The position numbers and the translations under genes were made by a program. Positions 11,605 to 41,691 of a stretch of 64,000 nucleotides of DNA are shown piece by piece. The stretch is from Nakazawaea peltata (taxonomy: Eukaryota; Ascomycota; Pichiomycetes; Alaninales; Pachysolenaceae): positions 1-64,000 of the forward strand of contig BCGQ01000009.1 in the NCBI GenBank assembly GCA_001599355.1, written 5' to 3'. Each line of letters opens with the position of its first letter. Within the stretch, counting starts at the first letter, position 1. The notes beneath the pieces are model-generated. The model searched no databases and had not been told where the DNA came from. It worked only from the letters and a program-made list of their open reading frames with translations.

Positions 11605-12534
11605 ATGTCTGCCATTTTGAAAAATTCAGACAAGCTTATGAAATTGAACAATGGTCAATCCATTCCAGCTTTGGGATTGGGTACGTGGCAATCAACTGAC
11701 CAAGAAGCCTATGACGCTGTCTTGGCCCTGTTGAAGGCTGGATACAAGCACATTGATACTGCTTGGTGTTACGGTAACGAGCTGCAAATCGGTAAGGCTA
11801 TCAAGGATTCTGGTGTCCCAAGATCTGAGATCTTCATCACTTCCAAGTTATGGGGTACTCATCACACTGACCCAGAAGGAGGTATTAAGAGAAGTTTGGA
11901 ACTTTTGGGTGTCGATTATTTGGACTTGTACTTGATGCACTGGCCAGTCACTTTGAACCCTAACGGTAACGATCCAAAATTCCCAACCAAACCAGATGGA
12001 TCCAGAGATCTTTTGGCTGACTGGAGTTTTGTCAAGACCTATGAATTGATGCAACCTTTGGTCGAGAAGGGATTGACTAAAGCCATTGGTATTTCTAACG
12101 TTTCTTTGAAGAATTTGAAGGTATTGTTAGATCTGCCAACTACCACTATTGTTCCTCTGGTCAACCAAGTCGAACTCCACCCATACTTGCCTCAACAAAA
12201 ATTGGTCGATTTCTGCAAGAGTAAAGGTATCGTAGTCACCGCTTACTCTCCATTAGGATCGACTGGATCTCCATTATTTGCTGACGAAACTTTGGTAGAA
12301 ATTGGTGAGAAATATGGAGTTTCCTCTGCCACAATCATGATCTCTTGGGCTATCTGGAGAGACACCGTTGTCTTGCCAAAATCTGTCAGTGCCAAAAGAA
12401 TCGAGTCCAACTTCAAAGTTGTCGACTTGAAGGATGAAGATGGTGAAAAAATTAACCAAATTAGCGTCAAGAAGGGCATCCAAAGAACTTGTCAACCAAA
12501 CTGGGGTGTTGTAGTCTTCAACGATGACGAATAA
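11605..12534 (+). CDS. Aldo-keto reductase (Gcy1/Ypr1-like)
   Basis: This 309-residue NADPH-dependent carbonyl reductase has the catalytic tetrad Asp51, Tyr56 (HIDTAWCYGNE), Lys81 (ITSKLWG) and His112 (LYLMHWP). The cofactor-binding PKS motif is at about residue 260 (VVLPKSVS). Size and motifs fit yeast Gcy1/Ypr1 and fungal sugar or uronate reductases; the substrate cannot be told from sequence. In this cluster it could reduce a released sugar, uronate or aglycone aldehyde. CTG codons at residues 42 and 185 sit in A-x-L-K-A-G and P-x-VNQ contexts where the family has Ala, part of the evidence for a CUG-Ala code. Codon use looks like that of a well-expressed gene. Confidence 0.9.
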   Translation: MSAILKNSDKLMKLNNGQSIPALGLGTWQSTDQEAYDAVLALLKAGYKHIDTAWCYGNELQIGKAIKDSGVPRSEIFITSKLWGTHHTDPEGGIKRSLELLGVDYLDLYLMHWPVTLNPNGNDPKFPTKPDGSRDLLADWSFVKTYELMQPLVEKGLTKAIGISNVSLKNLKVLLDLPTTTIVPLVNQVELHPYLPQQKLVDFCKSKGIVVTAYSPLGSTGSPLFADETLVEIGEKYGVSSATIMISWAIWRDTVVLPKSVSAKRIESNFKVVDLKDEDGEKINQISVKKGIQRTCQPNWGVVVFNDDE

Positions 12535-12609
12535 CTACTCAAAGGTAAGATATAAATAACAAATATTAAAGTTTATTTTTGGAACAATTATAACTAGACA
12601 TGAAAAAAA

Positions 12610-14304
12610 TCAAGCCAAAGAACGCTCGTCTGCACTTTCGATATGTTGAGCCTCCAGATCCTTAATGTCGTTGTTGAAAGCATTTTCGTTTTTAACAGTA
12701 GAACGACAAACGTATCCTTTGAACTTTCTTGGTGGAACACCGGTGATGTACATTTCGTCGATTTCTTCATAAGATCTGTTGGCAGTTTCTGGCAAGTAGA
12801 AGTAGAAGTATACGACGGACAACAGAGAGCAACCTCCGAAAATAAAGTTGATAGACGAACCCATGTCGGCTTGATCGGCATTGAACATATATGGCAAGAC
12901 AAATTGCCACATACATTGGAAGGCATAGTTGATGATAATAGCGGTAGAAATAGTCTTGGCTCTAAGACGAGAAGTTGGGTTTTCGGTGGCTAAAATATAA
13001 CTGATTGGACCAATACCAGAGTTGTAGAAGAAGTTGTACATACAAATGAACAGCGAGGAGGCAACCAGGTAAGGTTTCTCTTTCTTCAAACCAACACCGG
13101 CAGTGACAATGTTCAAAATAGTAAGGGAGATCATGGCATACAACATGACAGCACGTCTACCAAATCTATCGACAATGAACCAAGATGCAATAACACCACT
13201 AATGGATAACAGTTGAGCTCCACAACTGATTTGATAAGATTCTTGAGTGGAGAAACCGGCTAATTCATAGTAGTATGTGGAATAAGAACTGATATAAGAG
13301 ACACCAGACATTGGTTGCATGAAGAAAGGAGCAACAGCGGTGATGGTTCTCTTGATATTCAGAGATCTGAACAAATCCATGTAAGTACCTTCGATTTCAG
13401 AGGCAGATTGAGCTTCGACATAAGTTGTCTTAACAATAGCATATTGTTGTTGTGGTTCGACTTCTCCTCTGTACAATTTATGTAACAGAGCAAGAGCCTT
13501 TTCATCTTGACCACTCATGACAAGGTAGTATGGACTCTCTGGCATGAAAGGTAAGAAACAAAGGGAAGTGATACCGAAGATCCATTGTGGAATGAAAATA
13601 GATTGGTAAGACATTCTTGTGGTGTAAACAGAAGTGGTGTTGTTGATCAAGTAACAGATGAATGGACCAATACAAAGAGCCAAGTTAACGGAAGAAGATG
13701 CAACAGCTCTTAAAGCCAATGGAGTGATCTCACCGACATATGTAGTACCGGTACTGACAAGAACACCTAAGAAGAAACCGTTGAAGAATTTACCAATGAA
13801 GAAGACTTGAATGCTAGTGGCGACATACTCAATAGCAATACAAGGGATAGTCATGAGGGTAGCAAGGATAAGGATCCATTTTCTACCATACTTATCAGCA
13901 AAGTAAGAACCAACAAAGTTACCCAACAGCATAGTCAGAGATGGAGCACCACTGATAGCAGATTGCCATTTACTGTCAAGGACATAAGAACCTTCGTATT
14001 CATAACCGAAATCTTCTCTGAACTGAGGAATACTTAAGACCATACCACCGGCTTGACCATCGTAACCGACTAATACCATGACCCAAACAAGACCCAAGAT
14101 CCACATAGCAGTCTTTGGGTAGGCTTTAAGGGCTTGCCATTTGGTCAACTCATGCTCCAACTTTTGTTGGATTCTGGCAGTCTCTTCCAAGGCAGATAAA
14201 TCATGTTCAGTGATAGGCTTCTCTTTTAAAGCTTCCTGTACCATCAGGATATCTTGAGAGGTAACCTCGAGGTCAGCACTATGAATAGATGCTTGTGTGG
14301 TCAT
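12610..14304 (-). CDS. MFS sugar transporter, maltose-permease type
   Basis: This 564-residue sugar porter has about 12 membrane segments and a long acidic N terminus. It shows GYDGQ in the first membrane helix, DKYGRKW (loop 2-3), PESPYYL (after helix 6), DRFGRRA (loop 8-9) and PETANRSYEEIDEM (after helix 12). These fit the Mal31-like alpha-glucoside permeases rather than hexose transporters. It is convergent with the aldo-keto reductase, 75 bp apart. With intracellular-looking GH78 and GH105 enzymes nearby, it is the best candidate importer of intact rhamnosides or other glycosides. The substrate assignment is inference. Confidence 0.85.
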   Translation of the reverse strand: MTTQASIHSADLEVTSQDILMVQEALKEKPITEHDLSALEETARIQQKLEHELTKWQALKAYPKTAMWILGLVWVMVLVGYDGQAGGMVLSIPQFREDFGYEYEGSYVLDSKWQSAISGAPSLTMLLGNFVGSYFADKYGRKWILILATLMTIPCIAIEYVATSIQVFFIGKFFNGFFLGVLVSTGTTYVGEITPLALRAVASSSVNLALCIGPFICYLINNTTSVYTTRMSYQSIFIPQWIFGITSLCFLPFMPESPYYLVMSGQDEKALALLHKLYRGEVEPQQQYAIVKTTYVEAQSASEIEGTYMDLFRSLNIKRTITAVAPFFMQPMSGVSYISSYSTYYYELAGFSTQESYQISCGAQLLSISGVIASWFIVDRFGRRAVMLYAMISLTILNIVTAGVGLKKEKPYLVASSLFICMYNFFYNSGIGPISYILATENPTSRLRAKTISTAIIINYAFQCMWQFVLPYMFNADQADMGSSINFIFGGCSLLSVVYFYFYLPETANRSYEEIDEMYITGVPPRKFKGYVCRSTVKNENAFNNDIKDLEAQHIESADERSLA

Positions 14305-14909
14305 CTTTTTTTTTGGGAAATTATTCTAGGGATTGCAATAGGCAAGCAGAATATTGTTTGATTTGAAATTTTTTTTTAAAATCTGGGGAAATTGCTCCTT
14401 ATTTTATAGATGATTTGAAGACAAAGACATTACCCCGACATTATCAGGTTACTCCAGAAAAAAGAAGAATCATCAAATGCAAGTAGTGCATATCATTCTC
14501 ATGGGAATGCAGAATCAGGGCACCCCCACATTTTAAAAATCGGCTATTACCTTCGACCATATCCATGACAGACTTACTTCAATACTTGCTCGCACGTATC
14601 TTACCAAATTGGAATTTTTTCCTATACAAAAAAAAAAATTTCATAATGTTCCAAGCCTTTCGGTCCATTAATGTTTGCGAAGCTCGGCGCATCTTTGAGA
14701 TTGTGAGGGGGTGACCTCGGAACAATGATCGAAGAAAATCGTTTTTTCTCCATTGCTGCGGTGAAATAAAGAAAAGAATAATGAGATTGCAAGTGAAGAG
14801 AGCTAAATCTTGATCGGGGTCCTTGAGAGTAACATACGATCTGAACATATATATGAAGTAAATTGACGAGAGGAAACGAAGAAATCATCAAGTAAAGCGA
14901 ATTTTAACC
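14305..14909. promoter_or_regulatory. Divergent promoter, sugar transporter / unknown gene
   Basis: This 605-bp gap separates two divergent genes. TCGGGGTAATG occurs on the minus strand at 14428-14438, matching the cluster motif. A GGGGGTGACCTCGG stretch lies at about 14707-14720. No gene is supported. Confidence 0.4.
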
Positions 14910-15551
14910 ATGGAAGAACAGAAGAATATCATTGAGGAGTGAGTATTTACGCCTACAGAAAGTGTCATCTTGAACAGCACTAACAAGGATCTTATCAGAT
15001 GGAGTGTTTTGAAGGTGATGTATTTTCTCAAGTTGAGAAACATTACCCCTCCATTAGGACTCACCAAAGATGAGTTGATTGAATTTGCAGAGGGGAAGGC
15101 CTCAGTACCAATCACTTACGTACCGGTCACGAAATATATTTTGGAGAACTTGACTCATCAACAATTACTGAAATATTTGGAGCTGAGAGGCTACTGTGTA
15201 CTTGGTAAGGCCAAGGTTATGCCAGTGGTTTCCGACGAATTGACCCAAAGGCTGCAAACTTACCTTTTAGAGTTTGCTTTGAATGACTTCAAAGAAAATA
15301 TCGAGGGGAAGAATGAGGCCCAATTTCTGGATATCATCCCGAAGGTCATGGAATCTGAACTCGAACTGCCTATCACTTTGTTTAGAGAAGGTCAACCGTT
15401 CGACCAGTTCGATATTTGTTACAAAGAAATTCACTTGAATAGCCTAATCGAGCAGTTTAAGTCCGCCGATTCTAAATTATCGTCATTTTCGGATGACCAA
15501 AAAATAGAGTTTGCCAATAGATCTATCAGGTACCTCGTTCTGGGCAACTGA
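14910..15551 (+). CDS. Unrecognised protein, two exons, in glycoside cluster
   Basis: I do not recognise this 193-residue protein. Exon 1 is 14910-14938 (ATG, nine codons plus two bases). The intron is 14939-14998, with GTGAGT at its 5' end, CACTAAC as branch point and ATCAG at its 3' end. Exon 2 is 14999-15551. Splicing restores one frame (MEEQKNIIEEWSVLKVM), while the unspliced frame has no ATG near its start; the 5' site matches that of TUB1. The protein is hydrophilic with no signal peptide or membrane segment. Residues about 60-100 (LTHQQLLKYLELRGY) look faintly like a SAP-type helix-loop-helix, which is weak. It lies between the sugar transporter and the rhamnosidase, in the rhamnosidase orientation. 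Confidence 0.6.
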
Positions 15552-15896
15552 GATCAAATAACAAATTTTTGTCACCTCTTAACAACCAAGTATTGTAGGA
15601 ACATCATTTTCCCGGAGGCTATTACTAGTGCGGGGTACATTCCTTAGTAATAGTCAATTTTTTCGCGGGGTACATACATAATTTCATCCGATCGCCAAAT
15701 TTTCCGGAGAAGGAAATAAATTGAGCGCATGTATTTCATACGGAATAATCTTTGTCCGAGACCCCAAGGTATTGATCTCACCATTATTGCAGGTCCAAAG
15801 GCAAGTAGATGCGACGAAAAAGTATTCTCGATATATAATACAATATACGTTAGGAGTCATATTTCTGGGGTAGAAACCAATATTACCGAGTACAAG
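15552..15896 (+). promoter_or_regulatory. Rhamnosidase promoter with paired CGGGGTACAT boxes
   Basis: CGGGGTACAT occurs twice, at 15631-15640 and 15666-15675, with CTGGGGTAG at 15865-15873. The paired boxes are 35 bp apart. CGG/CCG words nearby (ATCCGATCG, TTCCGGAG) could serve a zinc-cluster regulator. The motif recurs in other promoters of the cluster. The bound factor is unknown. Confidence 0.45.
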
Positions 15897-17909
15897 ATGT
15901 CAAGATCCGATACCAAGTTCAAATCTTCGGTTATTAATGCCAGTCCCAACGAGGGACCATGGGAAGAATCCAAGTTCTCTCCAAAAGATCGTACTGTGTA
16001 CCCTACTTCTATCTATAGAACTGAAGGAATCGTGGAGAATGCCGAAGCCTTAATAGGTTTCGACAGCAGTTCCACCACTTATTTGAAGAGTTCCGTTGCC
16101 TCCATCACTTTGGATTTCGGTTTCAACACTTGTGGTGTCTATGCTATTGAGTTTGGATCTGATTCCACCGAGGATCAAACTATCCATATCTCTTTTGCCG
16201 AGTCCAAACAGTTCATTGATAGTGCTGAAAGTGACAGATCCATGGATTTCTTCATTGACGACAAAACTTTGGAAGTTCCAGTAAGAAGCGGCATTTACGT
16301 TGCTCCTCTGGAAAAGCAAAGAGGTGCCTTCACTTATATGACTATTTCCACCAGAAACTGTACTGGAAAGGTAGCTATTAAGACAGTTAAGACCACTATG
16401 AACTGTATGCCATCTTTGGGAGACGATTTGTCCAACTATTCCGGATACTTCCACTCCAGTGATGACTTCATCAACACTATTTGGTACGCTGGTGCTTACA
16501 CCGTTCAATTGGCTACTATTCCTACGAGAGCCGGAAGAACGATCGATTTCGTTATGCCAAAGACTGGTTGGTCCAACAAGGACACCTGTGGTTGTGGAGA
16601 GGAAGTATTGACTGACGGTGCCAGAAGAGACAGATCTGTTTGGTCCGGAGATCGTTTTGTCACTCAAACATCGGAAGCTATTGTGTTCAACTCTAAAGCC
16701 AGTCTTAATGGTGTTGATTGGATGCTTAAATTCCAAAATCCAAACGGTGAGTTCCCTTACGCTTGTCCTCCTATTCATGTATACGGATCTGACACATATA
16801 ACCTTTGGACCTTGGTTGACATTTATGATGTCTACTTGAGATTAGGTTTGAAAGACAGTGTCTGGATCAAAGAAGCTTGGCCACAATGGTTGAAATGTAT
16901 CGATTATCTGGCTGCTAAGGTCGATGAGAGAGGTCTTATGAAAGTTACAGGACCATTGGATTGGGGTAGACCTGTCTTGAGTGGACATCCTTTGTCTTTG
17001 AACTGTATTCTTTTCAAGCTGTTGAACTTGACTCTGGAATTAGCCACTAACGAGTTTGGTAACTCCAAATTGGCTTCTCAGTACCTCGAAAAAGCTGAGC
17101 TGTTGAAGAAGAGTATCAACTCGTCCTTATGGGATGAAAAAGCTGGTATGTACCTTGATACCGACGGTTCTGAGGTCCACCCACAAGACGGTAACTCTCT
17201 CGTTGTATTGTTTGGAGTTCTGCCAAAAGAAAGATATGATACTATTTCCGAGGGTCTTACCAAGAATTGGAATGAGTTTGGTGCCGTCAATATTGAAAGT
17301 GGGGGAATGATCTCTCCATTCCAATCTTCGATCGAATTGTATGCTCATTGTGCAGCTGGTCACCCAGAAAGATCTCTTGAGTTGATCAGACTTATGTGGG
17401 GTTACATCTGGAACTCTCCTTACAGTGTCAAGTCTTCTCTTATTGAGGGATACTTCAAGGACGGGTCCTGTAAATATCCATTTATCTTGTATGACCCATC
17501 TTATATTTCTCATGCCCATCCTTGGGCTTCTGGACCAACCACTTTAATGACCTATGACATTGTCGGTTTACAAGTCAATGACCCAACTCATAAGACATGG
17601 ACCTTCAAGCCTCATGGTGTCTTCTGCAAAGATGGTCTTGAATTCGCTCAAACCGGTTTTACCACCAACATTTTAGGCTTTATTTCGGCTGGTTGGAATA
17701 AAATCAATGACAGCACTTTACAATTGGTCATTAACGCTCCTCAAGGTCTGAAGGGTTCTATCTACGTTCCAAAATCTTCAAAACCAGTCAAGGAAATATT
17801 TATAGATAATAAGGTATTGGAATTAGGATCCCTTGTCGAAGAAGAGGAATATTATGTCATCTCGGACGTCTCTGCTGGTGCCAGAGAAGTCATCGCTGTA
17901 TATGCTTAA
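15897..17909 (+). CDS. GH78 alpha-L-rhamnosidase, intracellular
   Basis: This is a 670-residue glycoside hydrolase, family 78, which releases terminal alpha-L-rhamnose from glycosides. Residues about 239-252 (TDGARRDRSVWSGD) match the GH78 catalytic-region signature. Further family-like (alpha/alpha)6 features are GPLDWGRP (about 352-359), a KKSINSSLWDE helix and RSLELIRLMWGY. A beta-sandwich domain precedes the barrel and a short beta domain ends it. I chose ATG 15897 because an upstream in-frame ATG at 15729 adds 56 residues unlike the family, rich in promoter-type sequence. No signal peptide is visible, so the enzyme should be cytosolic and need glycoside import. CTG codons at 17019, 17034 and 17100 fall where related helices usually have Ala. 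Confidence 0.88.
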   Translation: MSRSDTKFKSSVINASPNEGPWEESKFSPKDRTVYPTSIYRTEGIVENAEALIGFDSSSTTYLKSSVASITLDFGFNTCGVYAIEFGSDSTEDQTIHISFAESKQFIDSAESDRSMDFFIDDKTLEVPVRSGIYVAPLEKQRGAFTYMTISTRNCTGKVAIKTVKTTMNCMPSLGDDLSNYSGYFHSSDDFINTIWYAGAYTVQLATIPTRAGRTIDFVMPKTGWSNKDTCGCGEEVLTDGARRDRSVWSGDRFVTQTSEAIVFNSKASLNGVDWMLKFQNPNGEFPYACPPIHVYGSDTYNLWTLVDIYDVYLRLGLKDSVWIKEAWPQWLKCIDYLAAKVDERGLMKVTGPLDWGRPVLSGHPLSLNCILFKLLNLTLELATNEFGNSKLASQYLEKAELLKKSINSSLWDEKAGMYLDTDGSEVHPQDGNSLVVLFGVLPKERYDTISEGLTKNWNEFGAVNIESGGMISPFQSSIELYAHCAAGHPERSLELIRLMWGYIWNSPYSVKSSLIEGYFKDGSCKYPFILYDPSYISHAHPWASGPTTLMTYDIVGLQVNDPTHKTWTFKPHGVFCKDGLEFAQTGFTTNILGFISAGWNKINDSTLQLVINAPQGLKGSIYVPKSSKPVKEIFIDNKVLELGSLVEEEEYYVISDVSAGAREVIAVYA

Positions 17910-24838: not shown

Positions 24839-26287
24839 ATGAGAGAAGTTATTAGTGTTAACAGTGAGTAATGAGATGATTTGTGAAAGAGCGCCGTTGA
24901 TTGGACTGATGGTTCTTCTTCCACCTCACCCCTTACCAAGTTACTAACGCGTTATTTAGTCGGACAAGCCGGTTGTCAAATTGGTAACTCGTGCTGGGAG
25001 TTGTACTCTTTAGAGCACGGTATTGGAGCCGATGGATATTTACAAGAAGGTTTGACCAAACCAAAGGGAGGTGAGGAAGGTTTCTCCACCTTTTTCAGCG
25101 AGACCGGTTCAGGTAAATATGTTCCAAGAGCTTTATACGTTGATTTGGAACCAAATGTAGTAGACGAAGTTAGAACTGGTAAATACAAGAACTTCTTCCA
25201 CCCTGAGCAGTTGATCACCGGTAAGGAAGATGCTGCTAACAATTATGCCAGAGGTCATTACACCGTAGGTAGAGAATTAATCGATGAGACTTTGGAAAGA
25301 TTGAGAAAGATGTCCGACCAATGTGAAGGTTTACAAGGTTTCATCTTCTCTCATTCTTTGGGTGGTGGTACCGGTTCCGGTTTCGGTTCCTTATTATTGG
25401 AGCAATTATCTATTGATTTCGGTAAGAAATCTAAGTTGGAATTTGCCGTTTACCCAGGTCCAAAGATGTCCACTTCCGTTGTCGAGCCATATAACACTGT
25501 CTTGACCACTCATACCACTTTGGAACACGCTGACTGTACATTCATGGTCGACAATGAGGCTATTTATGACATGTGCCGTAAGAATTTGGATATCCCAAGA
25601 CCAGGTTTCAGCAATTTGAACAAATTAATCGCTCAAGTTGTTTCCAGTGTCACTGCTTCTTTGAGATTTGACGGTTCTTTGAACGTTGATTTGAACGAAT
25701 TCCAAACTAACTTGGTCCCATACCCAAGAATCCATTTCCCATTGGTTTCTTACGCTCCAGTTTCATCCAAGAGTAAATCTAACCATGAAGCTCACTCTGT
25801 TTCCGAGATCACTGCTGCTTGTTTCGAACCAGGAAACCAAATGGTCAAATGTGATCCAAGAAACGGTAAATACATGGCTACTTGTTTGTTGTACCGTGGT
25901 GACGTTGTCAACAGAGATGTTCAACAAGCCGTTGCCACCATCAAGGCCAAGAAGACTGTTCAATTGGTCGATTGGTGTCCAACTGGTTTCAAGATTGGTA
26001 TTTGTTTCCAACCACCAACCTACGTTCCTGATGCCGACATGGCCCAAACTTCAAGAGCTCTTTGTGCTTTGTCCAACACCACTGCCATTGCATCTGCTTG
26101 GTCTCACATTAATGCCAAGTTCGACTTGATGTACAAGAAGAGAGCTTTCGTTCATTGGTACGTTGGAGAAGGTATGGAAGAAGGTGAATTTACCGAAGCC
26201 AGAGAAGATTTGGCCGCTTTGGAGCAAGATTACTTAGAAGTTGGTGCCGACTCCTATGATGACGAGATGGAAGGTGCTGAATATTAA
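24839..26287 (+). CDS. TUB1: Alpha-tubulin, two exons
   Basis: Alpha-tubulin forms microtubules with beta-tubulin. Exon 1 is 24839-24863 (MREVISVN plus one base); the intron is 24864-24959, with GTGAGT, TACTAAC at 24942-24948 and TTTAG; exon 2 is 24960-26287. The spliced protein has 450 residues and reads [18 protein letters not shown]. The tubulin signature GGGTGSG and the GTP-binding N terminus are present, and the protein ends in EMEGAEY with the usual C-terminal Tyr. Strong codon bias and absence of in-frame CTG fit high expression. The early intron position resembles that of other yeast alpha-tubulin genes. Confidence 0.97.
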
Positions 26288-30978: not shown

Positions 30979-33900
30979 ATGGCTAAAAAATCAGATAAAT
31001 TCGCCAGGTTCAAAGCCGCGAGAGCTGCAAAGTCCAGTCTCGCCGTTTATGAAGACGATCAATACGGTGCCGAAGACTATAACTTATATGATGAGGTAGA
31101 TGAAGACGAATACCGAAAACATAAAAGAGATCAATTATTAAAGGATGATTTCGTGGTGGATGACAACGGTGAAGGTTATGTCGACAATGGAGTTGATGAA
31201 TGGGCTACAAATCACAACTATTTCAGCGATGAGGACGATGACGCCGATGTTTCTAAAGACGGGGGCGATGACGGCGCTAACGCCAAAAAGAAGGAGAGGA
31301 AAGTGAAAAAGGCCGGCGGTTCAATTAACCTGCTTCTTAAATCAAGCGCCGAGAATCAGGAGAAGAAAAGAGTCGATACTTCCACTGTAGATGACATTTT
31401 GAACGATTTCGACTTGAAACCAGTCGTTTCCAAGTCGACTTTCACCGGCGGTTCTTCTGTCAAGAAAAGTAAAAACAATATTTTCAGCTCTTTCCATACT
31501 TCCGCGGAAAAGAAGAGACCAATCAATATGTTTAGTAGAGAACTTCAAGATGAAGATGATCTTTCCAGTAAAAAGCTGAAATTGAGTTCTGATCTGGACT
31601 ATTCTAATGATTATTCGATGATGTCTGATGATCTCCCACCTTCATCTCCTACTAAGGCCGTTCTTTCTACTAAAAAACAGCCTTCTTCACCTCTTAAAGC
31701 CGAGCCAATGGATTTGGATGAAGAAGAAGATGAAGAGGAGGAAGTTTTAGTCAGTAGAAGACCAAGAGCTGCTGCTGCCAATGTCTCGAGAACTGTCAAT
31801 TTGTCCGCTACTAAAGAAGTCAAGAAAGAACCACTTAGTGATACTTCATTCGACCAAAGTTCACCAGAAAAGATCTCCCCAACTACTACTACTCAGAAAA
31901 TCTCACCAGAAGACATTGTAGAATTGGATGAGGATGAAGAAAACCCATCTTTCAAATTCTTCTGGCTCGATTACGCAGAAGTTGATCATTCTTTACTTTT
32001 ATTCGGTAAAATTTTGACCAAGAACAATGAGTTGGTCTCGGGAATGGTCCAAGTTAACAATTTAGCCAGGGAATTGTACTTCCTTCCAAGAAAATACCGT
32101 AAATCCATGGATGAGGACGACGATGAGAGTGAGGATCAAGAAGAAGTGGGACCTATGGATGTTCATAAGGAAATTGTTCCTTTGATTTTGGCCAAATATG
32201 GTTTGAATTCGATCAGACTGAAACCAGAAGTAAAGAAATATGCTTTCGAACTCCCTGGGATCCCAAGAGGTGAGACCGAGTACTTGAAATTGTTATTACC
32301 ATACAAGACCCCAAAGAATTCTAGAATAACATTGCCTGCTGATTTAGAAGGTGAGACTTTCAGCCATGTCTTTGGTTCGAACACCAATATTTTTGAATCC
32401 TTTGTGTTACAAAAGAATGTAATGGGTCCATGTTGGTTGGAGGTTAAGAATGGTGATTTCGAGAGATTACAAAACACTTCCCATTCCAAGGTTGAAGTCG
32501 CCATTGACAATACCAACAACATTCAAGTCTTAAAGAGTCAATTACCACCTCCTGCTTTGAATGCAATGAGTCTTCACGTTGAAAAATGTTTGAATACCAA
32601 AGAAAACAAACAAGAAATTGCCGCTGTTTCTTTGGCCATCTATAACGACTTGCCACAGGATGCTCCAATTCCAGAAGATATTGAACCAGATCAAATCATC
32701 ACTTTAGCAAGAACAATCAACGGTGTTTTCCCTCCAGGTTTGGTCCCATTGGCTAAGAAGCAAAACTTCCCATTGAGAACTTTCAACAACGAGAAGACTT
32801 TACTCAACTGTCTTTCTGCCTTGGTCAAGGTACATGATCCAGATCTCTTCATTGGCCATAAATTAGAATCTATTTCATTGGATTTATTGGTCCATAGATT
32901 GCATGATTTACAGATCTCCACTTGGTCTTGCTTTGGTAGAAGAAACAGAAAGACTTGGCCAGACAGATTTGGTTACCAAAAGAATTTAAACACTCTTCAA
33001 ATCAGAGAGATTTTCCAAGGTAGATTGTTATGTGACATTGCCAACGAATTAGGTCAATCTTTGACTCCGAAATGTCAATCGTGGGATCTTCTTGAGATGT
33101 ATGAAGTTGTTTGTAAGAAGAAATGTATCAGTTTGGAAGTCAACTTCAATAACCCAAAGGTCACAGAAGATGCCAACACATTCATGATCCACTTACAAGA
33201 AGTTCTGAGTACTTCTTTGAGATCTGCCGAGATCGCCTTCTCCACTCAAATCTTGTCTCTTTCGAAACAATTGACAAACCTTGCTGGTAATTCTTGGTCT
33301 CATACTTTAGGTGGTACACGTGCTGGTAGAAATGAGTACATTCTTTTACACGAGTTCTCCAGAAATGGATATATAGCCCCAGATAAAGAATCTCGTTACA
33401 CCAAGAATGCCACCAAAGAAATCAATGAGAATGAGGAAGATGATTCCACTGCCACTTCTAACAAAAAGGCAAAGTATCAAGGTGGTTTGGTGTTCGAACC
33501 AGAGAAAGGTTTACACAAGAACTACATTTTAGTGATGGATTTCAACTCTTTGTACCCAAGTATCATTCAGGAGTTCAATATCTGTTTCACCACTGTTGAG
33601 AGATCATTGACTAACCCAGATGAGTTGCCAAATGTCCCAGATCATGAGGCTTCTCAAGGTGTCTTGCCTAAATTGTTGGCTACTTTAGTTAGTAGACGTC
33701 GTGAGGTCAAGAAATTACTTAAAGATCCAAAGGCCTCTGCCTTTGAGAAGGCTCAATATGATATCAAGCAACAAGCTTTGAAATTGACGGCCAACTCGAT
33801 GTATGGTTGTTTGGGTTATATTTATTCGAGATTCTATGCTAAGCCATTGCTGATGTTGGTCACCAACAAAGGTAGAGAAATCTTGATGGATACCAGACAA

Positions 33901-35364
33901 TTGGCTGAAAGTTTGGGATTACGTGTTGTGTATGGTGATACCGATTCTGTCATGATTGATACCGGATCTCAAGATTTCAAAGAGCTGTTAAGAATTGGTG
34001 ATGATTTCAAACTCAAGGTTAATGAACGTTACAGATTATTGGAGATCGACATTGATAACGTTTTCAAGAGAATCTTGCTTCATCTGAAAAAGAAGTACGC
34101 TGCCATGAACGTCTCTTACGTTGATGGTAAAGAAGTGACTACTTTAGAGGTTAAGGGTTTGGATATGAGAAGAAGAGAATATTGTCAACTTTCCAAAGAA
34201 GTGTCCACATTCATTTTGAATAAATTATTATTAGATGAGGACGATGAAGAGACTCTGAATCAAATTTATTCATACTTGGAGGACGTGACTGCCAAAGTAA
34301 AACTGAACGAGTATAGAGTGGACAAATTTGCCATTAATACTCGTTTATCAAAGGATCCTAAGCAGTATGCTGCTCTGAAATCTATGCCTGCAGTACAGCT
34401 GGCTTTGAGATTGAGGGAACAAGGTAAGATCGTAAAGGCTGGTTCTGTGATTACTTTTGTTATCTCGAAAGGTGATGACGATAACGTCCCAGCAGCAGAA
34501 AGAGCAAGACTGTTGCAAGAGATGATGTCCAATAAGCTGTTACAAATTGACCCTGAATATTACTTGGAGAAACAAATCTACGCTCCAGTAGAAAGATTGG
34601 TAGAGAAAATTGAAGGTATTGATCTTGTAAGAATTGCCACTTCATTAGGTCTTGACTTTAGAAAATATGAACAGCGTGCTCGTTTATCTTCAAATGATCC
34701 TCTGAACAAGTTACAGCCTTTAGAATCGACTATTTCAGACCTGGAGAGATTCAGAGACCTGCAATTCTTGGAATTACAATGTGGTTGTGGATCGAAATTC
34801 AAATTTGGAGGTATCATGAGCTCCAAAGATTACCAAATAACCCACCGTGGAATCCAATGTAGTAGATGTTCTCATGATTTGAGTTCTTTAAGAGTGAATT
34901 CGCAATTGGAAAGAGTCATCAGAGCCCATATCTCCATGTACTACTCTGGATGGCTTGTATGTGATGACTCGACTTGTGGAATTTCCACCAGACAAATCTC
35001 CGTTTATGGAAGACGTTGTATCGGTGTAAGTGGTAAGGCCCATGGCTGTAAAGGTATCATGAGATATAGATATTCCGATAAACTGTTGTACAATCAATTA
35101 CTCTATTTCGATTCCATCTTTGATGTCGAGAAGGCCAAAAAGAAGGAATTAAAACCTTTACAAGAATTGTCCGAGGAAGAGTTGAACGAGTCAAAGGAGA
35201 ATATCAAACAACCATTGAGCGATGCTCAATTGGCTCTGCTAACAGAACTGAATAGAGACAACTTCAACATCTCTAGAGGGGTTGTTGAGAAGTATTTGAA
35301 CGACTGTGGTCGTCGTTATGTCGATATGGGTGGAATTTTCAGTTTCATAACAACTTCTAAATAG
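30979..35364 (+). CDS. POL1: DNA polymerase alpha catalytic subunit
   Basis: This 1461-residue replicative B-family polymerase extends the RNA primer made by primase. ATG 30979 begins MAKKSDKFARFKAARAAK; the longer frame starts with TTG. After an acidic N-terminal region come the inactive exonuclease-like domain, then DFNSLYPSIIQEFN (about 854-867), KLTANSMYGCLGY, YGDTDS (985-990, two metal-binding Asp) and KKKYAA. The C terminus has two Cys-rich zinc sites (CGCGSKFKF with CSRC, then CDDSTCG with CIGVSGKAHGC). CTG at 33850 sits in KPL-x-MLVT, where yeast and human enzymes have Ala, and CTG at 34084 in LLH-x-KKKYAA, also a typical Ala site. Confidence 0.97.
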   Translation: MAKKSDKFARFKAARAAKSSLAVYEDDQYGAEDYNLYDEVDEDEYRKHKRDQLLKDDFVVDDNGEGYVDNGVDEWATNHNYFSDEDDDADVSKDGGDDGANAKKKERKVKKAGGSINLLLKSSAENQEKKRVDTSTVDDILNDFDLKPVVSKSTFTGGSSVKKSKNNIFSSFHTSAEKKRPINMFSRELQDEDDLSSKKLKLSSDLDYSNDYSMMSDDLPPSSPTKAVLSTKKQPSSPLKAEPMDLDEEEDEEEEVLVSRRPRAAAANVSRTVNLSATKEVKKEPLSDTSFDQSSPEKISPTTTTQKISPEDIVELDEDEENPSFKFFWLDYAEVDHSLLLFGKILTKNNELVSGMVQVNNLARELYFLPRKYRKSMDEDDDESEDQEEVGPMDVHKEIVPLILAKYGLNSIRLKPEVKKYAFELPGIPRGETEYLKLLLPYKTPKNSRITLPADLEGETFSHVFGSNTNIFESFVLQKNVMGPCWLEVKNGDFERLQNTSHSKVEVAIDNTNNIQVLKSQLPPPALNAMSLHVEKCLNTKENKQEIAAVSLAIYNDLPQDAPIPEDIEPDQIITLARTINGVFPPGLVPLAKKQNFPLRTFNNEKTLLNCLSALVKVHDPDLFIGHKLESISLDLLVHRLHDLQISTWSCFGRRNRKTWPDRFGYQKNLNTLQIREIFQGRLLCDIANELGQSLTPKCQSWDLLEMYEVVCKKKCISLEVNFNNPKVTEDANTFMIHLQEVLSTSLRSAEIAFSTQILSLSKQLTNLAGNSWSHTLGGTRAGRNEYILLHEFSRNGYIAPDKESRYTKNATKEINENEEDDSTATSNKKAKYQGGLVFEPEKGLHKNYILVMDFNSLYPSIIQEFNICFTTVERSLTNPDELPNVPDHEASQGVLPKLLATLVSRRREVKKLLKDPKASAFEKAQYDIKQQALKLTANSMYGCLGYIYSRFYAKPLLMLVTNKGREILMDTRQLAESLGLRVVYGDTDSVMIDTGSQDFKELLRIGDDFKLKVNERYRLLEIDIDNVFKRILLHLKKKYAAMNVSYVDGKEVTTLEVKGLDMRRREYCQLSKEVSTFILNKLLLDEDDEETLNQIYSYLEDVTAKVKLNEYRVDKFAINTRLSKDPKQYAALKSMPAVQLALRLREQGKIVKAGSVITFVISKGDDDNVPAAERARLLQEMMSNKLLQIDPEYYLEKQIYAPVERLVEKIEGIDLVRIATSLGLDFRKYEQRARLSSNDPLNKLQPLESTISDLERFRDLQFLELQCGCGSKFKFGGIMSSKDYQITHRGIQCSRCSHDLSSLRVNSQLERVIRAHISMYYSGWLVCDDSTCGISTRQISVYGRRCIGVSGKAHGCKGIMRYRYSDKLLYNQLLYFDSIFDVEKAKKKELKPLQELSEEELNESKENIKQPLSDAQLALLTELNRDNFNISRGVVEKYLNDCGRRYVDMGGIFSFITTSK

Positions 35365-35534
35365 AAATAATAAAAATTAGCTACCATTGAATAGCCATGT
35401 ATCCCCAATTTAGTATCTACATCAATTTAAAATCAAACCAAACTGAAATAAATTAAATTTTACCTATATAAGAGAATGTGTACTCAACACAATTATAAAA
35501 TGACAAAAAACATGGAGGATTAGAGTCCGACAAC

Positions 35535-37259
35535 TTAGACCTTGTCAGAGGCATCAGCAGAAGAGTTGAGTTGCTCATCGAGGTTGTTGATGTTGTTGAA
35601 GTTTTGCTTAGATGGGTCAACTTCACCGTGGTACTTCTCGGAGATCTCTTCCAAGGTCATTCTCTTGGTTTCTGGGATCAACAAGGTGGTGAAACAACCG
35701 ATCAACATGAACAAAGCAAAGATTTCCATGACGTGAGGCAAGAAACAGTTCTTGTCGTCAGCGGCACAACCGTGGTTGATCAAAGTACCAATGGCAGTTT
35801 GGGCAATGATGGCACCAACCTTACCGGAAGCAGCAGAGATACCGTGAGCAGTAGATCTGTATCTGGTTGGGAAACATTCACCTGGAACGATGAAAGTGGT
35901 GGTGTTTGGACCAAAGTTTTGGAAGAATTGGGCCAAGATATACAAGGCCAACAAACCCTTTTCACCCAACTTGTGGTAAGCGAAACCAATGACACAGAAG
36001 ATGACGGTCAAAAGAATGAAACCCATCAATTGAATTGGCTTTCTACCAACAGTGTCAAGAGTAGCAACAGAGAACCAGTAGCCTGGGATAGTACCAGCAC
36101 AAACCAAAATCAAGTTACCAGCAGCAGAGTTGTACAAAGAGTGGTAAACGTTCTTGGAAGACAGGTAACCAATAGTTTGCAAAATAGTGGCAGAGTTCAA
36201 ACCCAAACCGTAGTAAGCAACATCCAAAGTGAACCAAGACAAAGCAGTACCAATCAAGATTCTCATGTGCTTCCATTGGTTGAAGTGATGAGTGAAATCA
36301 GCCCAAGAAGCCTTTGGCAAGGATGGAATATCGTTGATAGAACCAATAGAAGCAATGTCTCTCAAGACCTCAATGTCCTCTTGGTCAGCATTACCGAACT
36401 TACCGGAAACGAACTTACCAGTGTCAGCAGAAGCCTTGTTGATGTCCAGCTCAACATCCAAAGTATATCTTGGGGATTCTGGGATGGTCAATCTGAAGTA
36501 CAAAGCAATAACACCTGGAACACAACCGAAACCGATCAAAATTCTCCACATTTGGTCACAGGCCTTGATACAAGCTGGACCACACTCAGCGGCGGTGTTA
36601 GCGTCGATCAAAGAAGATTTGTAACCTCTAACAGAGATAATGGCAACGATACCGGCAAGCAATTGACCCCAACCTTGGTTGGCGAAAACAGCACCCATAA
36701 TGGCACCTCTCCACTTGGTGGTAGAGAACTCAGAAGTGATAATAGAAGACAATGGGTAGTCACCACCGATACCAATACCCATGATGATTCTGCAGAAAGT
36801 GAAGATAGCAACAAAGTTGATACCAGCAGACTCACCAACACAACATTGAATAATAGTAGCACAAATCATAATAATCAATTCCAAACCGTAAATTCTCTTA
36901 CGTCCAACGTAATCGGCCAACCAACCGAAACCAACTTGACCAATGACGGTACCAACAGAAGTGGAAACCTTCAACAAGGTGCTGGTGGAAGATGGCATAG
37001 AACCAGCCCAGTAGACGTAAGTCATCATGGTGACAGCCAAGTTAATAGCAAAGATATCGTAAGCATCGGTCATGAAACCAACACCAGCAACACAAATGGC
37101 TCTGACATGGTACCAACCAAAGTGGGCATTGTCAATTTTTTCCAAAGCCAATCTTCTTCTTTCCAATGGGTCATGGACATCGGCGAAATCGTTGATGTAG
37201 TTGTGGAAAGCGGCGTTACCACCAGCAGTCTTCTCGATAGGACCTACTTGAGCAGACAT
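35535..37259 (-). CDS. PHO84: High-affinity phosphate:H+ symporter
   Basis: This 574-residue plasma-membrane MFS phosphate importer has about 12 membrane segments. Diagnostic pieces are GVGFMTDAYDIFAINL (helix 1), GIGIGGDYPLSSIITSEF (helix 4), PESPRYTLDVE in the central loop and FIVPGECFPTRYRSTAHG. Phosphate starvation should induce it through Pho4; the upstream region has CACGTG boxes. Strong codon bias creates a long open frame of similar length on the opposite strand, which is a shadow. It converges on POL1 with 170 bp between. Confidence 0.96.
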   Translation of the reverse strand: MSAQVGPIEKTAGGNAAFHNYINDFADVHDPLERRRLALEKIDNAHFGWYHVRAICVAGVGFMTDAYDIFAINLAVTMMTYVYWAGSMPSSTSTLLKVSTSVGTVIGQVGFGWLADYVGRKRIYGLELIIMICATIIQCCVGESAGINFVAIFTFCRIIMGIGIGGDYPLSSIITSEFSTTKWRGAIMGAVFANQGWGQLLAGIVAIISVRGYKSSLIDANTAAECGPACIKACDQMWRILIGFGCVPGVIALYFRLTIPESPRYTLDVELDINKASADTGKFVSGKFGNADQEDIEVLRDIASIGSINDIPSLPKASWADFTHHFNQWKHMRILIGTALSWFTLDVAYYGLGLNSATILQTIGYLSSKNVYHSLYNSAAGNLILVCAGTIPGYWFSVATLDTVGRKPIQLMGFILLTVIFCVIGFAYHKLGEKGLLALYILAQFFQNFGPNTTTFIVPGECFPTRYRSTAHGISAASGKVGAIIAQTAIGTLINHGCAADDKNCFLPHVMEIFALFMLIGCFTTLLIPETKRMTLEEISEKYHGEVDPSKQNFNNINNLDEQLNSSADASDKV

Positions 37260-37567
37260 TGTTATGCGAAACTAGTTATATACAGTGAATAACTTGAAGA
37301 CTTAAAGAAAATATAATTAGGTTCCAATGGGTCTATGGCAATGTATTTATATGAGGAGTTTTCTGCAACTGCAGCATCGGAATCTATACTACACCTAAAA
37401 AATTTCCAATTAATTTGTAACAATAGCAGCCACATAGAAGTATCGGATGGGTCTTTAATTAACAAACCCTACTAATTTGGGGGGCTAGGGCCCCTACAAC
37501 GCACGCACGCACGCTTTCCCACTAGGAATATGCAGCTTTGGGTTTTTTCTTTTTCCCTTTTGGCACA

Positions 37568-37573
37568 CACGTG
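37568..37573. promoter_or_regulatory. Pho4-type CACGTG box
   Basis: CACGTG lies 309 bp before the PHO84 ATG. Pho4 binds CACGTG in phosphate-regulated yeast promoters. The 5' flanking base is not T, which favours Pho4 over Cbf1 in Saccharomyces. Confidence 0.65.
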
Positions 37574-37960
37574 CACCCCTTTTAAGACGAAAATAAAGGC
37601 TACAAACTGTAGGCAGCCTAAGTTAATACGGTAATACGAGAGAGTAAAGTAAGAGAGCCTTTTGCCTGGTTTTTATTGCAGAAGTCTGTTAAATATGGGG
37701 ATGATGTGGACTGTTTTTAGTCAAAGTGCCATATCTCTTGGAAGCTTGGAAAAGCTTCTTATTGCTAACACTTCTTGTCAATCCAAGAGTTTAGACATTA
37801 AAATTGCATGGCAAACGTCTTAGTTACAGAATACCAAGATATTTGCACATCTACCTTTTCTTGGTCGTATCACACTAACCTATGTAGTAGTTATCCTCCC
37901 GCGGCTCCTCAGATTATAGTGGGGTGCACAACCTAATCGAGTGAAAAAATATTCATCGCA

Positions 37961-37966
37961 CACGTG
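37961..37966. promoter_or_regulatory. Second CACGTG box upstream of PHO84
   Basis: A CGCACACGTGGATC context about 700 bp upstream of the PHO84 ATG. It could serve as a distal Pho4 site. The distance is larger than usual, so function is less certain. Confidence 0.45.
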
Positions 37967-38255
37967 GATCGGAACTTAGTATGGAAAAAAATTCATCCTG
38001 TCACACGAGCGATAGCGCACGTTTTCCATCCTTGGTTAATGCGCAGCTTTACGTTCACCTACAGTATTCTCATGTGATGAGAATTTTGGTAAAACGGCGT
38101 ACGAAAGCTAATATCCGTAATAATGCCGCTGGAAACCAATGAAAAGACCCTTAGGCTTCTACACGTGTGTGGAAAGAGGTTCATCATTATTATAACATTA
38201 ATTTTTCATTTTAACTTTATACCCAGTTAACCCAAGAAAAGCAATAGGGGCTTAC

Positions 38256-38969
38256 TTAGATCTTGCGTCTTTTGTTCTCATCACTTATTTTTTCCGCTTT
38301 TCTCTTGAGTGGACCTGTGTTCAATTTCACCTTGCTTTTCGCCTTCTTCGGCTTTCTTGTTTTGAGATTGTGATGCATTTTAAGCTCGGACAAAAGCCCG
38401 ATCCTATTGGAGTTCTCAATGCTCCCACCACTCGCTGTCAATCCTACCCGATCACGCACAAGCGTCGCTTCGTTGCACTCGGGACAGTTAAAATGGTCGG
38501 CTTCTTTTTCTAAATGTATTAATTCTTCCACGAGCTTAGATCTCACAATATGCCCACATGGAACAAGATAGCAGTACTTTTCCTGATAACTCCGTATGTT
38601 CTGTTGTTCTTTTGATATTTCATGGAAATTCACTAATTCTACCACATCATTGATCGATTTAATATGTGAAAAATCATTCTTAGTCTCCCCTCCTAACAAA
38701 TATTCGATTACCAGCTCTTTATCGAACATATCACCTCGATAATCACTCACAACGCTACTCAGATCTTTCAACTTATTCCCACTCATCTTACAATAATTCC
38801 ATCGTATCTGTCTATTGGACTCATCTATCACGTCTTTGGACTCTTGTCTTTCCTTTGTTCTACCATCAAGGTGGAGAATTTCACGTCTTGTTGGGATGGT
38901 TCCACCGTCATTCTATATCCGTTAGTACTTATTCATTCATCAAAGCATGGTAAACATACTTACACCCAT
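38256..38969 (-). CDS. RTF2: Rtf2-type RING protein, two exons
   Basis: This 220-residue homologue of Rtf2 acts at stalled replication forks in fission yeast and mammals. Exon 1 is only 38964-38969 (ATG GGT). The intron is 38913-38963 (GTAAGT, TACTAAC, TATAG) and exon 2 is 38256-38912. Splicing gives the family's hallmark N terminus MGNDGGTIPTRREIL. Then come RWNYCKMS, SDYRGDMFDKELVIEYLL, a KSINDVVEL segment, and an atypical RING (CYLVPCGHIV, then FNCPECNEA). The C terminus is Lys/Arg-rich with KRKAEK and KRRKI, likely nuclear signals. Family function is known from other organisms; in this yeast it is inferred. The 51-bp intron and 6-bp exon make the start easy to miss. Confidence 0.88.
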
Positions 38970-39116
38970 GATGACCTTCTCACCTATACAATATATACAA
39001 GTCTCAAAAGCCTTGTACTATAATTTTGACCAGATATAAAAGTTGATATTTTATACACGACAATTTCCGAACTAACAAAATAAATACATTAAAGTATAGA
39101 AATATATACAGGGGAA

Positions 39117-39405
39117 TCAGTTACCGCCCTTGGCGATCTCTTGAGCCTTTCTGACCAGATCGTCTCTGGCCTCTTGGGCCTCTTGCTGTTGCAGCAGAGT
39201 TAATCTCAGCTCATTACGCTTACCAGTATTGTAAATAGTGTAAGTAACGTTGGCGGTCATATAAACTAAAAATGATGTGTTAGTCAGGGTGCCAAAAGGG
39301 TATTAAAAACATATTTTACTTACGAGTAAATCCAGCCAAACCGACAACAGTCAATCTATGAACGATGTCAGTAGCTCTGGTATACCATGGGTAGTAGCCG
39401 GCCAT
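39117..39405 (-). CDS. COX14: Cox14 cytochrome oxidase assembly factor, two exons
   Basis: This 76-residue mitochondrial inner-membrane protein, Cox14, stabilises newly made Cox1 and couples its translation to assembly. Exon 1 is 39324-39405 and exon 2 is 39117-39265. The intron 39266-39323 has GTAAGT, CTAAC and TTTTTAG. The spliced protein reads MAGYYPWYTRATDIVHRLTV, then VGLAGFTLYMTANVTYTIYN. The family pattern YxWYTRxTDxxHRLTV, a single membrane segment with LYM, and a polar Gln/Glu-rich tail match Saccharomyces Cox14. It is too short and split to show as a long open frame. Confidence 0.9.
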
Positions 39406-40324
39406 CTTGATTGTACTTCTTCTTAAGGCTTTACTGGCGTCTCAGTTAAATTGGGTAAAATTTTTCCTATTTTATTAGAACTTTATTGGTAAGAAATACA
39501 CGACTCAAATTTAAAGCCCGAAGTTGTGAATTTAAAGAATTAAAGCAACTTTGAAGGCGAGATATTCGTAGAGCTCACTTAGTCATATACGAGTAGTTAT
39601 GATGTCAATATCCAAATCGGTTCAAAAAAAACACAAATCTTCAAACTCCTCTACCCAACTAGCCCCGTTCATTTATTTTGCGGGCTTCGCACAACTTCGC
39701 CTGGCTTCCCTAATTATCTCCTTTCAGCATACTATAGAAAGATGCCAGACAAGAAATTGCGGAACGCCAACTGAGTGCTAGCGTGCATTGGAATCTGCGC
39801 GCGTTCTAGAACGCTTATTGTTGAATGCTACATGACATAACTGATAGGCTTCTCTGACATCAGGGATGTGCCTGTGAGGCGGTCACTACGTAAAGATTAG
39901 ATTGGCTGTTCATTGCTTTAATAACTTGAAACTCTTGAAGTAAACAAATTATTAGCCTATGTAATTTCCTTCTTCCGTAGCCGCGTTCTAGCCCCGTCAA
40001 GTGAGCTGTTTTTTTGTTGTCCCTTTTGGGACTTGAGGCTATCTCAAAACAGAAAAATTGTCTCCAAACCTTAAAAATATGGCCCTAAAAGTGCCCATCT
40101 TTCCCCAATACGGGGTACTTACAGGAAAAAATACTCACACAAATTCATTGCGTATATAAAACGAGCTGGTGATTCCCCTGTTGGGCAAACTTGTCTCTTA
40201 TTTGTTTACTACATAGTTATTTGAGACACTATCTTTTGTTTTTGTAAATATTTATTCCCGCTGTCAGCTGAACACATCCACGACTATATTAGGGCCGCTC
40301 CCGTCGTTATCTTGAGTTGATACA
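39406..40324. other. Divergent intergenic region, COX14 / membrane protein
   Basis: A 919-bp gap with no supported gene. The only frame (39599-39781) is Ser-rich and unlike any family. CGGGGTACTT at 40111-40120 resembles the rhamnoside-cluster motif but is far from it, and is probably chance. Confidence 0.45.
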
Positions 40325-41221
40325 ATGTCTATTGACGAAGACAAAATGAGCTCCAGCTTGCAAGAGAAAATGGATTTGGAGGCACAATTGAGGAGACAGA
40401 AACGTCCCTCAAAAGTGTTAAAGACTGATATTCTGTTGGTGGTTTGTCTAATCGCTTCACTTTTATTCCTGAGTTACGTGTTTATTGTCCCGCTTGTGGA
40501 GCAAATGACACATTCGCAACGGTTATGTGGGAATGCCGATAGCTCGTTGAATCCTCCTTGGTGTGAAGATGTTAATGTTAGATCTACAGAACCACTGCCT
40601 TCACAATTAGGTCAAGAAATCCCAAACCCTGAATCGTTATCGAGACCTGCTTTAGACACAGTACCAGTTACAAACAAAAATACCCTCATGGTTCTGGAAC
40701 CACCTAAAAATCCCATCAGACCAATAAAGAAATCTGGTGCTCCGGACGCCGATATTAACGATGAATATAAACTGATTGTACTGTTAGCCCCGGTGATTAT
40801 TATTTCATGGGACGATGATACTCAGGATATCCCGGTTTCGACTACATTGACTAACAGAGACACAGAGGATCTGATGAATGGCGGGTCTATCTCAAATCCT
40901 TCACTGCAAGAAGAAACAGTCTCTGATTACGAAACTTCAAGGACTTTAAAAACTCTCTTGACAAAGAATTACCAGATTCTCCCTCAACCCCAAATTTTAT
41001 CCATCAATAAACACCCACACTACTTAAAATTGATCGGACTCATCATGCAAAAAGTGGAGAAAATGGGTATATCAAAAAAATCCAACTTCCTCCCCGGGTT
41101 GATCATTAATGGCCGTCCAGTTGCAAGTGCTAAACTGTTAGAGCAATTGCACGCCAGTGGGAAATTGTTAGACTACTTAAAAAGTTGGGGCGAAGGTGTT
41201 ATTAGTGTCGAGAAGGCCTGA
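40325..41221 (+). CDS. Type II membrane protein with Grx-like C-terminal fold
   Basis: I do not recognise an orthologue for this 298-residue protein. A single membrane segment at about 39-60 (ILLVVCLIASLLFLSYVFIV) follows a charged N terminus, giving a probable lumenal C terminus. A low-complexity linker follows. Residues about 145-292 resemble a glutaredoxin/thioredoxin-like fold: a hydrophobic strand (YKLIVLLAPVIIIS) and a C-terminal part LPGLIINGRPVAS, then LLEQLHASGKLLDYLKSWG, matching the P-x-hydrophobic-ING and LHxxGKL pattern of glutaredoxins. There is no CxxC or CxxS after the first strand, so redox activity is unlikely. Saccharomyces Grx6/Grx7 share the topology but keep the active Cys. 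The fold call is inference. Confidence 0.65.
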   Translation: MSIDEDKMSSSLQEKMDLEAQLRRQKRPSKVLKTDILLVVCLIASLLFLSYVFIVPLVEQMTHSQRLCGNADSSLNPPWCEDVNVRSTEPLPSQLGQEIPNPESLSRPALDTVPVTNKNTLMVLEPPKNPIRPIKKSGAPDADINDEYKLIVLLAPVIIISWDDDTQDIPVSTTLTNRDTEDLMNGGSISNPSLQEETVSDYETSRTLKTLLTKNYQILPQPQILSINKHPHYLKLIGLIMQKVEKMGISKKSNFLPGLIINGRPVASAKLLEQLHASGKLLDYLKSWGEGVISVEKA

Positions 41222-41328
41222 AGATAGCCCTTATTTGTAATGACTTGATGATTCTTTTCTACCCGTTTAAAGGGCTCTCTTTATATTGAAATTTAACGAA
41301 TTTATCTCTATTTCCCCATGTAGTAAAA

Positions 41329-41337
41329 GTCACGTGA
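41329..41337. promoter_or_regulatory. Cbf1-type box (GTCACGTGA) upstream of BOL2
   Basis: GTCACGTGA lies about 90 bp before the BOL2 ATG. RTCACRTG is the Cbf1 consensus in yeasts. The same octamer GTCACGTG occurs in the TSR1 and RPS1 promoters in this window. Confidence 0.5.
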
Positions 41338-41427
41338 TTTTTGACAAGCATACATGGTGATTTTTTTGTAGGGTATTTCCAATCGAGTCATATATTCATT
41401 CGTAGTAAATAGAGATAATAGAAGAAA

Positions 41428-41691
41428 ATGGCTTTGACTTCAGAAGGATTGGAACAAATAATAAAAGAAAGATTGGAGGCACCAATAGTGCAAGTGCAAG
41501 ATATGTCAGGAGGTTGTGGACAACTGTTTGCCGTAATAATAGTGACCGATCTTTTCAAGAACAAGAACAAATTGATGAGACATCGATTGGTCAACAATTC
41601 ATTGAAGGAGGAGATTAGTGCTATTCATGCTTTTACTCAGAAGGGTTATACATTAGATGAGTGGGAAATTGCAAAGAGCGAATATCTGTGA
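41428..41691 (+). CDS. BOL2: BolA-like iron-sulfur protein, Bol2/Fra2
   Basis: This 87-residue BolA protein in yeast partners with Grx3/Grx4 in cytosolic iron-sulfur signalling and restrains the iron regulon. It contains SGGCGQ-x-F (conserved Cys ligand region), KNKLMRHRLVN, LKEEISAIHAF and KGYTLDEW, matching Bol2/Fra2 rather than the mitochondrial Bol1/Bol3. No presequence is present. The CTG in GCGQ-x-F reads Ala under the CUG-Ala code, close to the Ser or Ala common in relatives. The iron permease gene FTR1 lies about 1 kb away. Confidence 0.88.
   Translation: MALTSEGLEQIIKERLEAPIVQVQDMSGGCGQLFAVIIVTDLFKNKNKLMRHRLVNNSLKEEISAIHAFTQKGYTLDEWEIAKSEYL

Follow-up and report, generated by a model that had tools for sequence, protein, structure and literature searches.

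Which amino acid does the codon CUG specify in the yeast Nakazawaea peltata? The question is raised by a stretch of 64,000 nucleotides (GenBank assembly GCA_001599355.1, contig BCGQ01000009.1, positions 1 to 64,000; hereafter the window), which opens contig C9 in a genome of 11.63 Mb and 11 contigs. A sequence-only reading of the window had proposed that its in-frame CTG codons encode alanine. Genes in the window include POL1, VPS35, TSR1, VAC14, FTR1, and a relative of REI1/REH1, a set that points to a budding yeast, and CTG accounts for 154 of the 14594 codons in the 23 open reading frames (ORFs) counted.

We conclude from sequence that the nuclear CUG codon of N. peltata is very probably translated as alanine, via an alanine-featured tRNA with a CAG anticodon (probability about 0.96). 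The CAG tRNA, the residues found in PDB relatives, Pfam scores, and a paralogue test all agree, which upholds the proposal. The CUG-Ala code is itself already known (NCBI translation table 26), and the present genome confirms it without adding a new one.

A single CAG-anticodon tRNA carries alanine identity features

The genome encodes one recognizable tRNA with a CAG anticodon. Pattern scans for CAG tRNAs returned 26 places with a short variable arm and 3 with a long one; from these 29 loci, ARAGORN called a single such gene, at G000:C4:81426-81498 (L078:1469-1541). Its ARAGORN label, Leu, derives from the anticodon. The Rfam tRNA model, run with permissive filters, scores the gene at 50.9 bits (E 1.2e-10). 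The sequence-only reading had named a tRNA with a CAG anticodon and a G3-U70 pair as a check on its claim, and one such gene was found.

The acceptor stem consists of G1-C72, G2-C71, G3:U70, C4-G69, U5-A68, U6xU67, and A7-U66, with A73 as the discriminator. The tRNA-Ala(TGC) and tRNA-Ala(AGC) of the same genome have the pairs from G1-C72 to C4-G69 in common with it, as well as the mismatch U6xU67 and A73. The variable arm is short, and the D-arm resembles that of tRNA-Val/Gln. Among published eukaryal determinants, the entry listed for alanine is G3-U70, while those listed for leucine and serine have a large variable region (PMC9976931). The gene thus has both alanine-identity features: G3:U70 and no long variable arm. 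It also has an A box, a B box, and a terminator, a run of ten T residues that begins 8 bases past the gene. All of these, from the gene itself and its identity elements to the promoter boxes and the terminator, are observed directly, as are the alanine-like columns described below.

These features suggest how CUG would come to be read as alanine. The CAG tRNA bears an alanine acceptor stem (G3:U70, A73), and alanyl-tRNA synthetase, indifferent to anticodon bases, would load it with alanine. We infer this charging because the acceptor stem is of the alanine type and the enzyme needs no particular anticodon bases (PMC5951914). The loaded tRNA would then form Watson-Crick pairs with CUG, the ancestral tRNA-Leu(CAG) being apparently gone. 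Expression of the tRNA and the presence of alanine in the finished proteins are likewise inferred steps.

A competing tRNA-Leu(CAG) or tRNA-Ser(CAG), which the sequence-only reading had held would count against alanine, was found in none of three genome pattern scans; these are patterns, not an exhaustive tRNA scan, and a strongly divergent gene could escape them. The Leu/Ser D-arm pattern matched 16 places, with the leucine anticodons CAA (5), TAA (2), TAG (1), and AAG (1) and the serine anticodons AGA (3), GCT (2), TGA (1), and CGA (1). A looser scan gave two places, and ARAGORN recognized no tRNA at either. At the level of patterns, these scans support the loss of tRNA-Leu(CAG). An Rfam tRNA search of the genome returned 608 candidates, 63 of them scored as genes; His, Phe, Tyr, and Ile tRNAs and the CAG tRNA are missing from these 63, so that search is no proof of absence. 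ARAGORN reported no tRNA in the 64-kb window. At L107:1494-1599, the program prints a tRNA-Val(CAC) with an intron, the arms of which match the genome's tRNA-Leu(CAA). This is likely a tRNA-Leu(CAA) with an intron that ARAGORN misplaced, and it is one of the five CAA places counted above.

CTG codons fall in alanine-like columns

Pfam domains score best when CTG is read as alanine. Whole-protein bit scores were obtained with CTG as Leu, Ala, or Ser for six proteins, chosen because their domains hold several CTGs. Alanine was top in all seven domains, with summed advantages of 46.6 bits over leucine and 21.1 over serine. The margins over leucine were 7.5 bits (GH105-like gene), 5.8 (aldo-keto reductase), 9.1 and 9.3 (two POL1 domains), 4.2 (sugar transporter), 2.5 (FTR1), and 8.2 (VPS35); those over serine were, in the same order, 2.4, 4.1, 1.6 and 1.8, 6.3, 2.4, and 2.5. 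Thus, Glyco_hydro_88 on the GH105-like gene scores 286.0 bits with Ala, 283.6 with Ser, and 278.5 with Leu, and VPS35 scores 914.3, 911.8, and 906.1, respectively. Two further POL1 domains (exonuclease and N-terminal) are nearly unaffected by the meaning of CTG. Codetta infers codon meaning from aligned Pfam columns, a logic shared with the column tests used here (PMC8629427).

Paralogues within the genome also favor alanine. The comparison used 200 ORFs, each 120 codons or longer, drawn from the window and from extracted genome loci no shorter than 700 bases; the codon counts of this set take in overlapping loci and possibly spurious ORFs. BLASTP with CTG masked gave 427 directed pairs of 28-95% identity, which were compared in locally conserved columns with substitution profiles trained on the remaining codons. 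A partner was available for 86 CTG positions, of which 85 are distinct because one gene end sits in two overlapping loci (L110, L111). Those listed all lie in kinase domains or sugar transporters, the kinases being 20 domains that we chose among the top 29 entries in a list of 112 matches.

Alanine was the best reading against the closest paralogue, with serine 44.8, valine 81.8, and leucine 153.3 bits behind; on this margin, valine is rejected as the main meaning. With all partners averaged, alanine again led, serine trailing by 21.9 and leucine by 131.4 bits. The residues facing the 86 positions in the closest paralogue include 23 Ala, 8 Val, 7 Ser, and 3 Leu. Bootstrapping of the closest-paralogue test returned alanine in 1999 of 2000 replicates and serine in one, and alanine is also the outcome when the 48 kinase positions and the 38 sugar-transporter positions are taken separately. 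Control codons were called correctly in 47 of 48 cases, TGT being miscalled as Ala in the closest-paralogue version; in the all-partners version, AGC was called Ser by a margin of only 0.7 bits.

A third comparison used PDB relatives. Eight window proteins or parts of proteins, not selected by residue, were searched with CTG as X. They contained 51 CTGs: 15 of the 20 in POL1 (C-terminal 562 residues), 4 in the aldo-keto reductase, 6 in VPS35, 2 in BOL2, 6 in the GH105-like gene, 5 of the 7 in the rhamnosidase (middle part), 5 in TSR1, and 8 in REI1. All but three (BOL2 codon 87, REI1 codons 14 and 161) were aligned in the best match, and column residues were taken by eye from the best relative of each protein. 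At the 48 aligned CTGs, these residues are Ala 16, Ser 4, Thr 4, Val 4, Asn 3, Ile 3, Glu 3, Gln 2, Gly 2, Lys 2, Arg 2, Leu 1, Asp 1, and Pro 1. In the aldo-keto reductase, 2 of 4 are Ala; four further genes are as follows.

7610..8734, minus strand: GH105-like gene, the most telling; 4 of 6 CTGs on Ala in the best relative, the others on Asp and Glu
30979..35364, plus strand: POL1, 20 CTGs; 15 of them fall within the C-terminal 562 residues and face 5 Ala, 1 Leu, and 0 Ser in the best relative
52548..54863, minus strand: TSR1, 5 CTGs; codons 25 and 652 on Ala in the best relative, the others on Lys, Gly, and Glu
56441..58999, minus strand: VPS35, 6 CTGs, 2 of them on Ala in the best relative; codons 655 and 659 are Ala in all four chains shown

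The excess of alanine at CTG columns exceeds chance, as the paralogue test and the Pfam scores agree with it. Columns dominated by leucine or serine, the other result that would have spoken against the proposal, are not what we see: leucine occupies 1 of the 48 best-relative columns and 3 of the 86 closest-paralogue columns, and serine 4 and 7, respectively.

The sequence-only reading had rested on eight CTGs, all of which are in frame at the positions it cited.

11728..11730, plus strand: aldo-keto reductase codon 42; Ala in the aldose reductase chains shown
12157..12159, plus strand: aldo-keto reductase codon 185, P-A-VNQ; Ala in the aldose reductase chains shown
17019..17102, plus strand: rhamnosidase CTGs at 17019, 17034, and 17100, uninformative; Val, Ile, and Arg in the best relative, 8iwd
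33850..33852, plus strand: POL1 codon 958, KPL-A-MLVT; Ala in all five Pol alpha chains shown
34084..34086, plus strand: POL1 codon 1036, LLH-A-KKKYAA; Ala in three yeast chains shown, Lys in two others
41524..41526, plus strand: BOL2 codon 33; Ser in 5y4b, 2mm9, and 2mma, Ala in 3o2e

Half of these sites are alanine positions in the best PDB relative, namely both in POL1 and both in the aldo-keto reductase. At POL1 codon 958, the chains with Ala include the best relative and two animal ones. At codon 1036, Ala is confined to the yeast chains, which include the best relative and which we take to be yeast Pol1; the two chains with Lys are presumably frog and human. The rhamnosidase CTGs had been placed at helix alanine positions, a claim that fails: in 8hmm, the second relative, the residues there are Val, Gln, and Gly, and we dropped these three sites as evidence. 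The small residue expected at the BOL2 site is Ala in one relative shown and Ser in the other three, the best one included.

Alternative meanings of CUG

Several observations weigh against alanine. In about two thirds of the CTG columns, the best PDB relative has a residue other than Ala, and alanine is found at 0 of 6 aligned CTGs in REI1, 1 of 5 in the rhamnosidase, and 0 of 1 in BOL2. An overlapping MFS_1 match on the sugar transporter favors leucine slightly (Leu 84.8, Ala 84.0, Ser 80.8 bits). Among 22 tRNAs compared, the CAG tRNA is nearest overall to tRNA-Val(TAC), at 52/74 positions (70%), and it is 67% identical to tRNA-Ala(AGC), with 24 of 73 positions different. It also has A35, G37, and A73, named as leucine determinants in yeast (PMC8629427). 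Free folding yields no cloverleaf (z 0.15); the basis for that structure is ARAGORN together with the covariance model. Finally, the fast Rfam filters missed this tRNA both on its own locus and in the whole-genome search; other tRNAs may therefore have been missed too.

Under the standard code, CUG would be read as leucine through wobble by tRNA-Leu(UAG), as in Saccharomyces, and the alanine sites would be chance. The tRNA-Leu(UAG) gene is indeed present, and the many non-alanine columns in PDB relatives would fit. However, leucine trails alanine by 153.3 bits in the closest-paralogue test, stands in a single best PDB relative, and falls below alanine in 7/7 Pfam domains, and there is a CAG tRNA with G3:U70 that lacks a long variable arm. 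A serine meaning, as in the CUG-Ser1 and CUG-Ser2 codes, draws some support from Pfam, where serine outscores leucine in 6 of 7 domains, as a small residue might, and from BOL2, where 3 of the 4 relatives shown have Ser. Yet alanine is preferred to serine in every one of the seven domains and by 44.8 (closest paralogue) and 21.9 bits (all partners). In the CAG tRNA, the variable arm is short and position 73 is A, and the pattern scans detected no tRNA-Ser(CAG) with a long variable arm. On the evidence of Pfam, the paralogue test, and the PDB tally, we reject both leucine and serine as the main meaning and consider either code extremely improbable.

An ambiguous code would be subtler: mainly alanine, with a minor share of valine, or of leucine if the CAG tRNA is at times mis-leucylated or if tRNA-Leu(UAG) reads CUG by wobble. 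The leucine determinants of the CAG tRNA and the presence of tRNA-Leu(UAG) are compatible with this, and A35 and A73 are also listed as eukaryal valine determinants (PMC9976931). Against it, the CAG tRNA has neither of two features given for eukaryal leucine, a large variable region and a C3-G70 pair, and the same source gives A35 little weight for leucylation in vivo (PMC9976931). Column statistics are blind to a minor share of another residue. In the published work on this code, Krassowski et al. identified major products by liquid chromatography-tandem mass spectrometry, and low levels of other residues were not ruled out (PMC5951914). We regard such ambiguity as unlikely.

The tRNA-Leu(UAG) gene has a structured intron

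The only tRNA-Leu(UAG) found (G000:C4:804518-804725, L104 1318-1525, minus strand) has an intron of 120 nucleotides. Its 208-nucleotide precursor has a predicted folding energy of -74.4 kcal/mol (z -6.25), a stability equaled by 0 of 200 shuffled sequences, and the intron is predicted to fold as a long hairpin. Krassowski et al. regard the introns of 134-318 nucleotides in the tRNA-Leu(CAG) of some Leu1 yeasts as the largest known for canonical tRNAs (PMC5951914). Like them, the present intron is long, strongly structured, and located in a tRNA-Leu of the CUN box; unlike them, it measures 120 nucleotides and lies in tRNA-Leu(UAG), in a CUG-Ala genome. A surface-level literature search, supplements excluded, turned up no mention of a comparable intron in tRNA-Leu(UAG), which is weak evidence; the intron is possibly new.

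We can imagine, as a speculative and rather improbable extension, that the CAG tRNA has a dual identity, combining an alanine acceptor stem with A35, G37, and A73. CUG would then be mostly alanine with a small programmed leucine share, and the folded intron of tRNA-Leu(UAG) might have evolved to restrain a tRNA capable of decoding CUG as leucine.

Other features of the window

The window contains 11 N bases. Between positions 7610 and 17909, genes for the GH105-like hydrolase (489.5 bits against PDB 3qwt), an MFS transporter, the aldo-keto reductase, the sugar transporter, and an alpha-L-rhamnosidase adjoin one another. This looks like a cluster for utilization of rhamnose or pectin fragments. 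Three of the 23 ORFs counted, at 25001-26287, 61709-62383, and 62880-63650, have no CTG. Judged by their N-termini, they are likely tubulin, peroxiredoxin, and RPS1, which are likely highly expressed.

Relation to known codes and implications

CUG-Ala yeasts are one of three lineages in which the meaning of CUG has changed (PMC5951914). Krassowski et al. (2018) assign Nakazawaea, Peterozyma, and Pachysolen to the Ala clade, so the code proposed by the sequence-only reading was, as it noted, already published for Pachysolen and Nakazawaea (PMC5951914). The CAG tRNA of this clade arose by anticodon mutation of a tRNA-Ala (PMC5951914), and a review agrees on both the clade and the tRNA-Ala origin (PMC11415595). 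The main text of the Nakazawaea ambrosiae genome paper, in the part available, does not mention CUG or the genetic code (PMC10106607).

N. peltata resembles the published clade in having a CAG tRNA with alanine features, apparent loss of tRNA-Leu(CAG), and alanine-like CUG columns. The likeness to published tRNA-Ala(CAG) genes is at the level of described features. CUG-Ser1 (Candida) and CUG-Ser2 (Ascoidea, Saccharomycopsis) yeasts also reassigned CUG via a CAG-anticodon tRNA, and there too the synthetase requires no anticodon bases (PMC5951914). In contrast to these, the CAG tRNA described here combines G3:U70 and A73 with a short variable arm, and the columns fit alanine over serine. Judged by the published distribution of the CUG-Ala code, the genome would belong to the Pachysolen/Nakazawaea clade (PMC5951914).

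Protein predictions made from this genome with the standard code would be wrong at CTG codons, and the finding fixes which code to apply. The genome also provides further material on how codon reassignment happens.

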